Assembly: GCF_025061645.1 (NCBI RefSeq)
Contig: NZ_JANYMP010000005.1
Location: forward strand, 92,534 to 142,157
Source: Umezawaea endophytica
GTDB taxonomy: Bacteria > Actinomycetota > Actinomycetes > Mycobacteriales > Pseudonocardiaceae
Direction of reading: 5' to 3'
DNA length: 49,624 bases
Shown here piece after piece: positions 14,928 through 24,878 of this stretch; positions within the stretch are counted from its first letter, which is position 1, and each line of letters opens with the position of its first letter. Both the position numbers and the translations under genes were made by a program. The notes under the pieces were generated by a model. The model did no database searches. It was not told where the DNA came from and was given only the letters and a program-made list of their open reading frames with translations.

Positions 14928-15593
14928 GTGACCGGACTTCAACTCGCCAACCTCGACGACTTCCTGGCCCGCCGCTGGGAAGACGTCGTCGAACTGGCAC
15001 TGCAACACCTCGCCGCCGTGGCGATCTCACTGGCGCTGGCCACCGCGATCGGTGTCCTCATCGGACTGCTCGTCTGGGACCGGCCGGTCCCCCGCTCCGT
15101 CTCGCTCACGGCGGCGGGCATCGCGATCACGATCCCGTCGCTCGCCCTGCTGGCGCTGCTGAGCCCGGTGCTCGGGCTCGGGTGGGCGCCGACGATCGTG
15201 TCGCTGGTCTTCTACTCGCTGCTGCCGATCGTGCGGAACACCGTGGTGGGCCTGAGGGAGGTGCCCGGCCACCTGGTGGAATCCGCGCGGGGCATGGGGA
15301 TGACGCCCGCGGCGGTGCTGCTGCGGATCCAGCTCCCGCTGGCCTGGCCGGTGATCGTCACCGGCATCCGGGTCGCCGCGCAGCTCACCGTCGGCATCGC
15401 GGCCATCGCCGCCTACGTCGCCGGTCCTGGTCTGGGCGTCTACATCTTCCGGGGGCTGTCGTCGCTCGGGTCGGTCAACGCCCTCAACTTCGCCCTCACG
15501 GGCACGCTCTGCGTCGTGCTGCTGGCGCTGCTCATCGACGGCGCCTTCGTCCTCATCACCCGCTACAGCACGCCGAGGGGTCTCCGTGCCTGA
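14928..15593 (+). CDS. Quaternary-amine ABC importer permease 1 (OpuCB/OpuBB-like)
   Basis: Inner-membrane permease of 221 residues with about six helices. The cytoplasmic EAA loop that docks on the ATPase reads ESARGMGMTPAAVLLRIQLPLAWPV (about 122-146), and LLPIVRNTVVGL just before it is typical of the OpuC/ProW group that carries glycine betaine, choline or carnitine. GTG start with GAGGAGGAGG eight bases upstream. First gene of the ten-gene operon; its end overlaps the ATPase by eight bases. Confidence 0.92.
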   Translation: MTGLQLANLDDFLARRWEDVVELALQHLAAVAISLALATAIGVLIGLLVWDRPVPRSVSLTAAGIAITIPSLALLALLSPVLGLGWAPTIVSLVFYSLLPIVRNTVVGLREVPGHLVESARGMGMTPAAVLLRIQLPLAWPVIVTGIRVAAQLTVGIAAIAAYVAGPGLGVYIFRGLSSLGSVNALNFALTGTLCVVLLALLIDGAFVLITRYSTPRGLRA

Positions 15594-16578
15594 TCCCACC
15601 GCGGGCGTCGGCATCGAGCTGAGCGACGTCACCAAGCGCTACCCCGGTCAGGAGCACGGCGCGGTCGAGGACTTCTCGCTGCGGGTCGAGCCCGGCGAGC
15701 TGCTGATGTTCGTCGGACCGAGCGGCTGCGGCAAGACGACCACGATGAAGATGATCAACCGGATCATCGAGCCGACGTCGGGCTCCATCACGATCGACGG
15801 CGAGGACGTCCTGTCGCTGGACCCCAACGAGCTGCGCCGCCACATCGGCTACGTGATCCAGCAGATCGGGCTGTTCCCGCACATGACCATCGCCGAGAAC
15901 ATCGCCACGGTGCCGAAGCTGCTCGGCTGGTCGAAGGCGCGCGTCGCCGACCGGGTGGACGAGCTGCTGCGCACGGTGGCGCTCGACCCCGGCGTGTTCG
16001 CCCACCGCTACCCCAAGCAGCTCTCCGGCGGGCAGCAGCAACGCGTCGGTGTGGCCCGAGCGCTGGCCGCCGACCCGCCCGTGATGCTGATGGACGAACC
16101 GTTCGGCGCGACCGACCCGATCACCCGGCTGAGGTTGCAGGAGGAGTTCCGGCGACTCCAGGCCGACATCGGCAAGACGATCATCTTCGTCACCCACGAC
16201 TTCGACGAGGCCGTCCGGCTGGGCGACCGGATCGCCGTGCTCAGCGAGCGCAGCCGGATCGAGCAGTGCGACACGCCGGCGAACATCCTCGCCGACCCGG
16301 CCAACGAGTACGTGGCCGGGTTCATCGGCCGGGGCGCGGGTCTGATGCGGCTGGCCCTGATCCCGATCGGCGAGGTCCCGCTGGAGGCGCCCGACGACTC
16401 GTCGGCCGCGCTCGGCGTGCAGGACTCGCTGCGCGACGCGCTGGACCTCCTCGTGCTCACCGGGGGACAGCGGGTCAACGTCACCGACGAGTCCGGCTCG
16501 GTGGCCGGATCGCTCACCCACGCCGGGATCTCCGCCGCGCTCGGGGCGCCCCGCCTGCCGACGGGGACGGCGCCATGA
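15586..16578 (+). CDS. Quaternary-amine ABC importer ATPase (OpuCA-like)
   Basis: ATPase of 330 residues. Walker A is GPSGCGKTT (about 44-52), signature LSGGQQQRVGVARAL, Walker B VMLMDEPFGATDP, and switch His in FVTHDFDEA. NELRRHIGYVIQQIGLFPHMTIAENIATV is characteristic of the OpuCA/ProV subgroup. After residue 245 there is a short C-terminal region with a single CBS-like segment, shorter than the tandem CBS pair of B. subtilis OpuCA, so ionic-strength sensing may be reduced or lost (inference). GTG start; stop overlaps the next ATG (ATGA). Confidence 0.93.
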   Translation: MPDPTAGVGIELSDVTKRYPGQEHGAVEDFSLRVEPGELLMFVGPSGCGKTTTMKMINRIIEPTSGSITIDGEDVLSLDPNELRRHIGYVIQQIGLFPHMTIAENIATVPKLLGWSKARVADRVDELLRTVALDPGVFAHRYPKQLSGGQQQRVGVARALAADPPVMLMDEPFGATDPITRLRLQEEFRRLQADIGKTIIFVTHDFDEAVRLGDRIAVLSERSRIEQCDTPANILADPANEYVAGFIGRGAGLMRLALIPIGEVPLEAPDDSSAALGVQDSLRDALDLLVLTGGQRVNVTDESGSVAGSLTHAGISAALGAPRLPTGTAP

Positions 16579-23496: not shown

Positions 23497-24878
23497 CGGC
23501 CTACCTGATCGCGATCGACAACGGGTCGCAGAGCACGAAGGTGTCGATCGTCGACGAGGCGGGGAAGGTGCACGCGTCGGCCCAGCGCCCGCTGCGGCCG
23601 TACCTGCACCCCGCGCCGGGCCGGGTCGTCCACCCCGACGACGACGTGTGGGACTCCATCGCGAGCACCTGCGCGGAGGCGATGCGCGGCTTCACCGGCG
23701 ACGTGTCGCGCGTGGCCGGGGTCGGGCTGTGCACGATCCGGTTCTGCCGCGCCCTGCTCGACCGGGACGGCGGGTTGCGCGAGCCGCTGCTGAGCTGGAT
23801 GGACGAGCGGCTGGCGCGCGCACACGAACCCGATCCGGAGGTCCGGTACGTCACGACGTCGTCGGGCTACGCGACCTACCGGCTGACCGGGCGGCGTAAG
23901 GACACCGCGGGGAACTACCAGGGCGTGTGGCCGATCGACCACACCACGTGGCGCTGGTCCACCGACCCCGCGCGGTACGCCGAGGCGGGGATGGACCGGG
24001 ACCGGTTGTTCGACCTGGTCGACCCCGGCGACCTGCTGGGGCACGTCACCGCGGAGGCGGCGACGGCGACCGGGCTGCCCGCCGGGCTCCCGGTGTTCGC
24101 CACCTCGAACGACAAGGCGGTCGAGGCGCTGGGCAGCGGGGTGCGCCGCGACGACGAGGTGCTGGTGTCGCTGGGCACGTACATCGCCGCGATGACCACG
24201 GGCGACCGCCACGCCGTCGACGACTCGGGCCGCTACTGGACCAACTTCGCCTCCGTGCCCGGCCGGTACCTGCACGAGAGCGGCGGCATCCGCCGGGGCA
24301 TGTGGACGGTGAGCTGGTACCGCGACCTCGTCGGCGCCGACCTGGCCGAGCTGACCGCGGGCGCGGAGGAGGTCGAACCGGGCAGCGGCGGGCTGATGGC
24401 GGTCCTGGACTGGCTCGCGCCCACCGACCACCCGTACCGCCGGGGCGCGCTGCTCGGATTCGACGGCACGCAGGGCAGGTACCACGTGTACCGCTCCGTC
24501 CTGGAGGCCATCGCGCTGACCGCGCACCGGCACTGCGCCGCCATGGCGACCGCGCTCGGCCGGGACTTCACCGACGTCGTCCTGTCCGGCGGCGGTTCCC
24601 GGTCGGACCTGGTGGCGCGGATCTTCGCCGACGTGTTCGCCCGACCCGTGCGCCGCACCAGGATGAGCGACGCCGCGGGCCTGGGCGCCGCGATCTGCGC
24701 CGCCGTCGGCAGCGGCGTCCACCCCGACTGGGACACGGCCGTGCGGGCGATGGCGACCACGACCGACCTGGTCGAGCCCACCGCCGAGGGCGTCCGCGCC
24801 TACTCCTCGATCGCGCCGCGGTTCGCGCGGATCACCGACTTCACCGACCCGCTGTTCGCCGAACTCGCCGCGCGCTGA
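23493..24878 (+). CDS. ygcE: FGGY-family carbohydrate kinase, YgcE-like
   Basis: Kinase of 461 residues with the two-lobed FGGY/actin fold. The phosphate-1 loop is AIDNGSQSTKVSIVD; LLSWMDERL gives the substrate-binding W-x-D, TSNDKAVEALGSG the presumed catalytic Asp (about 206), and VLSGGGSRSDLVARIFADVF the ATP-binding C-lobe. RKDTAGNYQGVWPID, RRGMWTVSWYRD and GFDGTQ match YgcE of E. coli as I recall it. It should phosphorylate a polyol, ketose or sugar acid. GTG start overlaps the YgcU-like stop (GTGA). Last gene of the operon; a separate leaderless promoter precedes the next gene. Confidence 0.92.
   Translation: MTAYLIAIDNGSQSTKVSIVDEAGKVHASAQRPLRPYLHPAPGRVVHPDDDVWDSIASTCAEAMRGFTGDVSRVAGVGLCTIRFCRALLDRDGGLREPLLSWMDERLARAHEPDPEVRYVTTSSGYATYRLTGRRKDTAGNYQGVWPIDHTTWRWSTDPARYAEAGMDRDRLFDLVDPGDLLGHVTAEAATATGLPAGLPVFATSNDKAVEALGSGVRRDDEVLVSLGTYIAAMTTGDRHAVDDSGRYWTNFASVPGRYLHESGGIRRGMWTVSWYRDLVGADLAELTAGAEEVEPGSGGLMAVLDWLAPTDHPYRRGALLGFDGTQGRYHVYRSVLEAIALTAHRHCAAMATALGRDFTDVVLSGGGSRSDLVARIFADVFARPVRRTRMSDAAGLGAAICAAVGSGVHPDWDTAVRAMATTTDLVEPTAEGVRAYSSIAPRFARITDFTDPLFAELAAR

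Follow-up and report, generated by a model that had tools for sequence, protein, structure and literature searches.

Which compound is taken up and broken down by a bacterium that carries a quaternary-amine importer and a set of catabolic enzymes in one operon? A stretch of 49,624 nucleotides of the actinomycete Umezawaea endophytica (contig NZ_JANYMP010000005.1; the window, hereafter) raises this question, since ten genes on its plus strand, at positions 14928-24878, encode an OpuC-type ABC importer, a Fae-family protein, an enzyme of the 3-hydroxyisobutyrate dehydrogenase family (HIBADH), an aldehyde dehydrogenase (ALDH) resembling succinic semialdehyde dehydrogenase (SSADH), a short-chain dehydrogenase/reductase (SDR), an FAD enzyme and an FGGY kinase (Table 1). 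An earlier note on this DNA had described the ten genes as lying on one strand, most overlapping by 1-8 bases, and this description was right: six of the nine junctions overlap (by 8, 4, 4, 4, 1 and 4 bp), one abuts (binding-protein gene/Fae gene, 18289/18290) and two leave gaps of 38 and 32 bp. Its family assignments of all ten proteins were likewise borne out by Pfam and NCBIfam. The same gene order, with a divergent IclR-type regulator gene, recurs in Umezawaea tangerina, Lentzea, Microbacterium, Nocardioides and others, and the arrangement is therefore not due to chance. We propose herein that the operon very probably serves the catabolism of a cationic compound and, tentatively, that this is a quaternary-ammonium compound O-linked to glycerol, for which glyceryl-O-N,N,N-trimethylhomoserine, the deacylated headgroup of the betaine lipid diacylglyceryl-N,N,N-trimethylhomoserine (DGTS), would be the most likely candidate. 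We infer this substrate, and all of the reactions proposed below, from the gene content, the synteny, the exchange of modules, the cation box, the residues shared with alkyl-dihydroxyacetone phosphate (DHAP) synthase (AGPS), and the associated regulators and transporters.

The importer consists of two permeases, an ATPase and an OpuAC-fold binding protein with an aromatic box, as do the OpuC, ProX, OsmF and EgtU importers, and structures of ProX, OpuCC, OsmF and EgtU are among the PDB matches of the binding protein. The box residues F49, Y97, Y143, F226 and Y250, which are identical in 75 of 75 binding-protein sequences, align with the aromatic box that presumably holds the cation in OpuBC-derived sensors. 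Osmoregulated OpuA and OpuC ATPases carry tandem CBS domains. Unlike these, the ATPase in the window has no CBS domain by Pfam, ABC_tran being the sole domain over the cut-off, and the importer genes share an operon with those of catabolic enzymes. Both the invariant box and the lack of a detected CBS domain support the earlier suggestion that the operon breaks down a cationic or zwitterionic compound having a polyol or hydroxy-acid part.

A Fae alignment was scanned against a genome collection, and the best 80 of the 223 relatives found were kept as named loci, of which some are short contigs and 60 are full-length. The conserved core of these loci consists of the OpuC-type importer, Fae, HIBADH and the SSADH-like ALDH: the binding protein, HIBADH and the IclR regulator are each present in 74 of the 80 loci and the ALDH in 70, and of the 73 loci with the Fae and binding-protein genes both on the plus strand, 72 have them no more than 200 bp apart. 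Relatives lacking the importer or Fae would, according to the earlier note, have spoken against its proposal; all four importer genes are present in 71 of the 80 loci, while Fae, being the query, is present in 80 of 80 by construction. The remainder of the operon is exchangeable. Module A (SDR, FAD enzyme and FGGY kinase) alone accompanies the core in 34 of the 80 loci, and module B (an enolase-superfamily protein, a second ALDH and an iron-dependent alcohol dehydrogenase, Fe-ADH) alone in 36; one locus is mixed (L093, module A plus an enolase), three have fragments, and six have neither module. The full-length loci divide into 29 with A, 27 with B, one mixed and three with neither. Even where the gene order is rearranged (L048, L049, L051, L053, L058, L086 and L093), the module A genes remain linked. 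The ten genes had been taken for a single pathway, but only the importer, Fae, HIBADH and ALDH form a conserved unit; the trio of module A is swapped for module B in 36 loci and is also found elsewhere without Fae. When the A-versus-B state is mapped on a quick tree of 75 binding-protein sequences, three changes are needed; with each label set against all the rest, four changes are required, at least three of which are forced by well-supported branches (shuffled mean, about 25). Because the same importer thus occurs with either module, modules A and B probably act on the same compound. A second core, made up of a distant Fae (about 35% identity) and a zinc-dependent alcohol dehydrogenase (Zn-ADH), pairs with module A in L023, L026 (which stops inside the kinase gene), L027 and L032, and with module B in L024. 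The distribution is patchy: any Fae was found in 14 of 200 related genomes, the window's own genome included, with a single match in the latter, and the FAD enzyme was found in 3 of 396 genomes, own included, in a phylum-wide search (E <= 1e-130).

Some loci show further variations. In one Leifsonia and two Leucobacter loci (L085, L106 and L110), the Fae core, accompanied by module A in L106, stands beside a YgcS-like MFS carrier, and no ABC importer match was found. Five module B loci of the Arthrobacter group (L082, L083, L084, L090 and L113) have, as judged by eye, an extra SDR-like open reading frame (ORF) right after the last ALDH (16759-17550 in L084). On a plasmid of a Mariana Trench alphaproteobacterium (L118, 8384-11116), an Fe-ADH (35%) lies near a 47% identical module B enolase, with neither an importer nor a Fae match. 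In a metagenome-assembled deltaproteobacterial genome (L112, 10001-10486), a Fae that belongs to the operon clade (60% identity) is not accompanied by any other gene of the operon, and distant Fae homologues in the window's family (L025 and L028-L031) have no window-operon enzymes in the 20 kb covered, except for a generic ATPase match in L025.

The trio of module A had been likened to the E. coli ygcW-ygcU-ygcE group, and orthology was confirmed by identities over nearly full length (Table 1) to the E. coli K-12 reference proteins, read from NC_000913. The FAD enzyme, previously called an FAD-linked oxidase, does belong to this FAD family; by its residues, however, it is AGPS-like and not a plain hydroxy-acid oxidase. 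AGPS is its top PDB match (phmmer E 2.8e-47; best non-AGPS chain, 1e-28), and a Foldseek search with its structure model ranked AGPS first and D-lactate dehydrogenase fifth, although the models of this enzyme and of the binding protein added little to what the sequences gave. At the positions of AGPS R419, Y578 and H615-617 (guinea-pig numbering), which we take to be important for catalysis, Arg, Tyr and HHH are shared by the FAD enzymes of Actinobacteria, E. coli, Enterococcus, Priestia, Vibrio and Ilyobacter, but the counterparts in E. coli GlcD are Glu, His and Gly-Glu-His (GEH). The corresponding R276, Y409 and H448-450 are invariant in 36 of 37 rows (80-locus set, window and YgcU), the remaining row being gapped. 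R419H and Y578F are, according to structure titles, AGPS mutants with solved structures. Thus, AGPS is the nearest PDB relative by sequence and fold and is identical at these active-site positions, but the identity is only about 25%, the gene of the FAD enzyme sits with those of a kinase and an SDR in a catabolic operon, and the direction proposed for it is cleavage. The substrate of AGPS is a 1-O-substituted DHAP, and an SDR yielding a ketone together with an FGGY kinase would fit the conversion of a 1-O-substituted glycerol into such a compound. An O-substituted glycerol is, by a modest balance of probability, the predicted target of modules A and B.

Trio clusters without Fae were examined in E. 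coli, Streptomyces clavuligerus, Enterococcus, Ilyobacter, Priestia, Vibrio and two further genomes (G287 and G382); of these eight, three have a betaine-type transporter, three a glycerol 3-phosphate (G3P) antiterminator and three electron-transfer flavoprotein (ETF) genes. The antiterminator (PF04309, tested on YgcP; relatives elsewhere at 44-47%) shares trio clusters in three phyla, namely in E. coli (3 kb off), Enterococcus (7 kb off), S. clavuligerus and three of the four distant-Fae trio clusters (L023, L027 and L032). Betaine transporters share the trio cluster in four phyla: they are of the OpuC type in Actinomycetota and Enterococcus and of the BCCT type in Vibrio, and that of Ilyobacter is a BCCT-like fragment of 163 residues (40%). 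Release of DHAP by the trio would explain both the recurrence of G3P-responsive antiterminators and the fact that the trio can stand alone (L130 and L131). The E. coli cluster, in which ygcW-ygcU and ygcE are accompanied by yqcE, ygcS, ygcQR and ygcP, has the orthologous SDR, FAD enzyme and kinase, and carriers resembling YqcE and YgcS, as well as antiterminators resembling YgcP, are found again in related clusters. It differs from the operon in that no OpuC importer, Fae, HIBADH or SSADH is annotated in the E. coli stretch, and in its ETF genes, of which the operon has none. On S. clavuligerus plasmids (L115 and L123), an OpuC-Fae-HIBADH-ALDH operon and a separate antiterminator-YgcWUE cluster occur about 294 kb apart on the same record.

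The enolase-superfamily protein of module B keeps a K-x-R motif, a D/E/E set and a D-H pair in all rows having those columns (40 rows, gaps in at most two); we take these, by eye and on the pattern of mandelate racemase (MR), to be the Lys base, the three metal ligands and the His-Asp dyad. Its nearest NCBIfam model is TalGalacDh (talarate/galactarate dehydratase), but none of the curated dehydratase models was passed (best, 129.5 bits versus a cut-off of 500). Thus, it retains the Lys, metal-ligand and Asp-His positions of the MR-subgroup acid-sugar dehydratases while falling far under all of the curated cut-offs shown, and the leaving group proposed for it is an alkoxide rather than hydroxide.

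In the core, the PDB chains nearest to the HIBADH-family enzyme are TSR and HIBADH, with 2-hydroxymethylglutarate dehydrogenase sixth. The Fae-family protein shares with Fae (TIGR03126) the family, a score over the curated cut-off and the position of His17, which we take to be the catalytic histidine; it is kept in 27 of 27 operon rows, in 2 of 2 rows from clusters with an aldo-keto reductase (AKR), in 5 of 6 canonical-type rows and in 6 of 9 distant rows. At other positions, the operon proteins carry fixed differences from the Faes of methylotrophs and of tetrahydromethanopterin (H4MPT) clusters. They also stand apart in a quick tree of 44 Faes (long branches flagged), in which the six canonical-type rows, two of them from clusters annotated with H4MPT genes, split off (SH-aLRT 88) from the operon, AKR-cluster and distant rows. 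Because a search of 14 host genomes for one H4MPT marker, MCH (PF02289), found it in none, while the control search matched three archaea among 14 control genomes, the operon protein is unlikely to be a canonical formaldehyde enzyme.

A further difference from Fae is that an aspartase-like lyase replaces it in comparable clusters. The trio clusters of Vibrio and Priestia have an AKR or a Zn-ADH, an ALDH resembling betaine aldehyde dehydrogenase (BADH) and an aspartase-like lyase (348 and 485 bits, respectively, to the aspartase subfamily; cut-off 510), and no Fae match was found in either trio stretch; nor did the Priestia lyase match in the 80 Fae loci or on the Caballeronia Fae plasmid. The core of Caballeronia and Ensifer consists of Fae, an AKR and an ALDH 47-49% identical to that of the window, and the Caballeronia AKR, which adjoins Fae and SSADH, shares 73% identity with that of Vibrio. 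The mutual absence of lyase and Fae, the shared AKR and an ORF joining such a lyase to a BCCT carrier suggest that Fae and the aspartase-like lyase occupy equivalent places. That ORF, on a Peribacillus plasmid (L124, 9998-12556), comprises the lyase (residues 2-392) and the carrier (395-819), each without one end, as if a deletion had fused neighbours; of 260 records with other aspartase-like lyases, three were inspected for gene context, and besides this fusion they gave two ordinary-looking loci.

Taken together, these observations suggest the following route. The importer would take up glyceryl-O-trimethylhomoserine. With module A, the SDR would turn the glyceryl C2-OH into a ketone, phosphorylation of the free CH2OH by the FGGY kinase would produce an O-substituted DHAP, and from this the AGPS-like flavoenzyme, acting in the cleavage direction, would release DHAP and a hydroxy-betaine. 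With module B, as in the relatives, the Fe-ADH and ALDH would oxidise the glyceryl CH2OH to a glycerate ether, from which the enolase-superfamily enzyme would eliminate the alkoxide, yielding pyruvate and the same hydroxy-betaine. In the core, the HIBADH-type enzyme would then oxidise the freed CH2OH to a product resembling succinic semialdehyde, the SSADH-like ALDH would convert this into the acid, and the Fae-subfamily protein, in place of an aspartase-like lyase, would eliminate trimethylamine (TMA) to leave a fumarate-level product. This order of alcohol, aldehyde, acid and amine elimination corresponds to trimethylhomoserine, trimethylaspartate, and fumarate plus TMA.

The DGTS headgroup, with its quaternary amine, glyceryl ether and four-carbon hydroxy acid, fits the importer, both modules and the core, and its assignment as the substrate in particular is plausible but somewhat less likely than the alternatives combined. 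The diacylglyceryl hydroxymethyl-N,N,N-trimethyl-beta-alanine (DGTA) headgroup fits almost as well, and glycerophosphocholine (GPC) and sugar-amine conjugates fit less well. In DGTS, glycerol is joined to trimethylhomoserine by an ether bond, and a 2023 review presumes that enzymes breaking this bond exist but were not yet identified (PMC9892843). A betaine lipid also figures in work on phosphate-starved Phaeobacter (PMC10132767). The only enzyme known to break glyceryl ethers is, according to two papers, the tetrahydrobiopterin-dependent membrane enzyme alkylglycerol monooxygenase, AGMO (PMC9192799, PMC7911779). AGMO thus resembles the proposed system in the bond that it breaks, but differs in its cofactor and membrane location and in being, by name, an oxygenase. 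We know of no relation between AGMO and the genes of the operon.

Several points weigh against the proposed route and its substrate. The HIBADH is also compatible with the DGTA isomer, and both the curated score and the His17 position of Fae would suit a formaldehyde role as well. The recurring neighbours, read by eye in the 30 largest ORF clusters with no family scan, showed no lipase and no gene for TMA oxidation or demethylation; the three largest of these clusters (24, 13 and 6 loci) appear to be false, overlapping frames, and none other exceeds 5 of the 80 loci. The fold search alone does not distinguish AGPS from the D-lactate dehydrogenases. In E. coli, Enterococcus and Ilyobacter, YgcU-type enzymes have ETF genes (Pfam ETF) nearby, which points to a net oxidation, whereas AGPS chemistry has no need of one; as tblastn with E. 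coli YgcR matched none of the other trio loci at E <= 1e-6, these ETF pairs are related only at the family level. The G3P antiterminator occurs in 0 of the 80 OpuC-Fae loci, where an IclR regulator is found instead, and only in other trio clusters. MFS carriers in E. coli, Priestia and most distant-Fae clusters, and the lone trios of G287 and G382, imply that the trio substrate need not be a betaine everywhere. The link between trio and lyase in Vibrio is loose, since the lyase-ALDH pair lies 2.3 kb from the trio with only short ORFs between them. Finally, the module counts come from related genomes, being drawn from the best 80 of 223 relatives, and are not independent events.

Some of these points would suit a sugar-amine or sugar-acid-amine conjugate, or another hydroxy acid, with YgcW and YgcE acting on the sugar-like part, the FAD enzyme as a common dehydrogenase of hydroxy acids or polyols with ETF or oxygen as electron acceptor, and no glyceryl ether involved. 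Besides the ETF genes near the trio in three lineages, such a substrate is suggested by the SDR being nearest KduD, the kinase nearest XylB by profile, the FAD enzyme also matching GlcD, and the module B enolase being nearest to talarate/galactarate dehydratase among NCBIfam models. It is nevertheless rather unlikely, as the residues kept in the FAD enzyme are those of AGPS and not those of GlcD, trio clusters other than the OpuC-Fae loci repeatedly contain G3P antiterminators, and neither module has an aldolase or a further sugar-acid enzyme. Alternatively, the Fae-like protein might handle formaldehyde arising from N-methyl groups or from a DGTA-type retro-aldol reaction and pass it to another acceptor; in addition to its score and its histidine, a Zn-ADH like NDMA-ADH/mycothiol-FDH adjoins the distant Faes. 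We judge this unlikely in view of the fixed differences from methylotroph and H4MPT-cluster Faes, the lack of an MCH match in all 14 genomes, the lyase in Fae's place in Vibrio and Priestia, and the lack of a demethylase or oxygenase in the operon.

GPC or a choline derivative would also combine a quaternary amine with glycerol, the trio taking the glycerol part and the dehydrogenases oxidising choline to betaine. A G3P antiterminator would suit such a substrate, as would the BADH-like ALDHs of Vibrio and Priestia and the 226 bits of the Fe-ADH to the GbsB choline dehydrogenase model (cut-off 550). The core ALDH, however, is SSADH-like, the alcohol enzyme is of the HIBADH or AKR type, the aspartase-like lyase or Fae would be without a role, and no phosphodiesterase was seen by eye among the recurring neighbours, which together render it improbable. 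Least probable by far is a plain osmoprotectant importer that happens to lie next to unrelated catabolic genes: its components are of the OpuC type, but the ATPase has no detected CBS domain, the regulator is IclR-type, most genes overlap, and Fae and the importer go together with the regularity described above (72 of 73 and 71 of 80 loci).

Other candidates were set aside. The proline-betaine and carnitine routes would leave the kinase, SDR and AGPS-like enzyme without a role, and reading the recurring neighbours by eye, with no family scan, showed neither a Rieske oxygenase nor a CoA ligase or carnitine gene. For the glyoxylate-acetal headgroup of diacylglyceryl carboxyhydroxymethylcholine (DGCC), choline oxidation alone would suffice. 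The DGTA isomer was lowered to a sub-case; it suits the HIBADH and a formaldehyde-handling Fae, and suits the SSADH-like ALDH and the aspartase-like lyase less.

The intergenic region between the IclR gene and the operon contains shared words, located at about 14835-14868 in the window. Of 70 such regions, 41 contain GTTGCCAT (24 with module A, 15 with B and 2 other) and 25 contain GTTGTGCA (10 with A and 15 with B), compared with letter-shuffle means of 0.3 and 0.4, respectively. An operator-like element may be represented by these words, a reading that is suggestive only because the loci are related.

Table 1. Operon of the Umezawaea endophytica window and its upstream regulatory region; roles named as proposed are predictions
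Feature	Position	Strand	Evidence
IclR-family regulator, divergent from operon	13965..14816	-	Pfam IclR_C E 2.8e-23; tblastn match in 74/80 related loci
Operator-like element in divergent promoter, TGTTGCCATAT...CAACA...TGTTGTGCA type (putative function)	14835..14868		Words shared among intergenic regions
ABC permease 1, OpuCB/ProW type	14928..15593	+	PF00528, 66 bits
ABC ATPase, proV subfamily	15586..16578	+	proV 319.1 bits, just below cut-off 326.6; Pfam ABC_tran
ABC permease 2	16575..17315	+	PF00528, 94 bits
Substrate-binding lipoprotein, OpuAC/ProX/OpuCC/EgtU fold	17354..18289	+	PF04069 E 1.1e-51; PDB matches; aromatic cation box F49, Y97, Y143, F226, Y250
Fae-family protein, operon subfamily; proposed lyase (or formaldehyde) step	18290..18802	+	PF08714 E 4e-50; TIGR03126 148.2 bits, cut-off 118.05
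HIBADH-family enzyme; proposed oxidation of freed hydroxy-betaine	18799..19704	+	NAD_binding_2/NAD_binding_11; PDB matches
ALDH, SSADH-like	19701..21200	+	SSADH subfamily 537 bits, best of NCBIfam matches, below cut-off 646
Module A SDR, YgcW orthologue, KduD-like; proposed glyceryl C2-OH oxidation	21200..21976	+	62% identity to YgcW
Module A AGPS-like FAD enzyme, YgcU orthologue; proposed cleavage of O-substituted DHAP	22009..23496	+	FAD_binding_4/FAD-oxidase_C; 60% identity to YgcU; AGPS-type R276, Y409, H448-H450
Module A FGGY kinase, YgcE orthologue; proposed phosphorylation of dihydroxyacetone ether	23493..24878	+	43% identity to YgcE; FGGY_N and FGGY_C

Upstream of the IclR gene, and outside the conserved operon, 12307-13940 contains a minus-strand MerR-family regulator gene (PF13411, E 1.6e-16) and a plus-strand gene of the Old Yellow Enzyme family (PF00724, E 8.5e-63). 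On the strand of the operon, 40 bp past the kinase gene, 24919-28092 encodes a regulator-like protein of 1057 residues with BTAD (PF03704, E 5e-21) and AAA domains.

A gene set without a described pathway was what the earlier note had seen here, and our searches of the open-licence literature turned up neither the operon nor a function for ygcWUE; papers on promoters, regulators and resistance screens name some of the ygcW, ygcU and ygcE genes (for ygcU, for instance, PMC8228696), and no title there concerns their function. That this is a catabolic pathway new to the literature searched is well supported, and its reading as a route for a glyceryl ether from betaine lipids is the best specific hypothesis, albeit unproven. 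The widest form of the proposal is doubtful: it would comprise two exchangeable ways of stripping glycerol from betaine-lipid headgroups, a YgcWUE route with AGPS chemistry in reverse and an alkoxide elimination by an enolase, a Fae-fold TMA lyase leading to a fumarate-level product, and a general role of E. coli YgcWUE for O-substituted glycerols. If the glyceryl-ether reading holds, two candidate enzyme sets would be at hand for breaking the DGTS ether, the E. coli ygcW-ygcU-ygcE genes would gain a concrete chemical role, and a large Fae subfamily is predicted to be non-methylotrophic. Thus, a gene cluster conserved in soil bacteria may serve to dismantle the headgroups of phosphorus-free membrane lipids.

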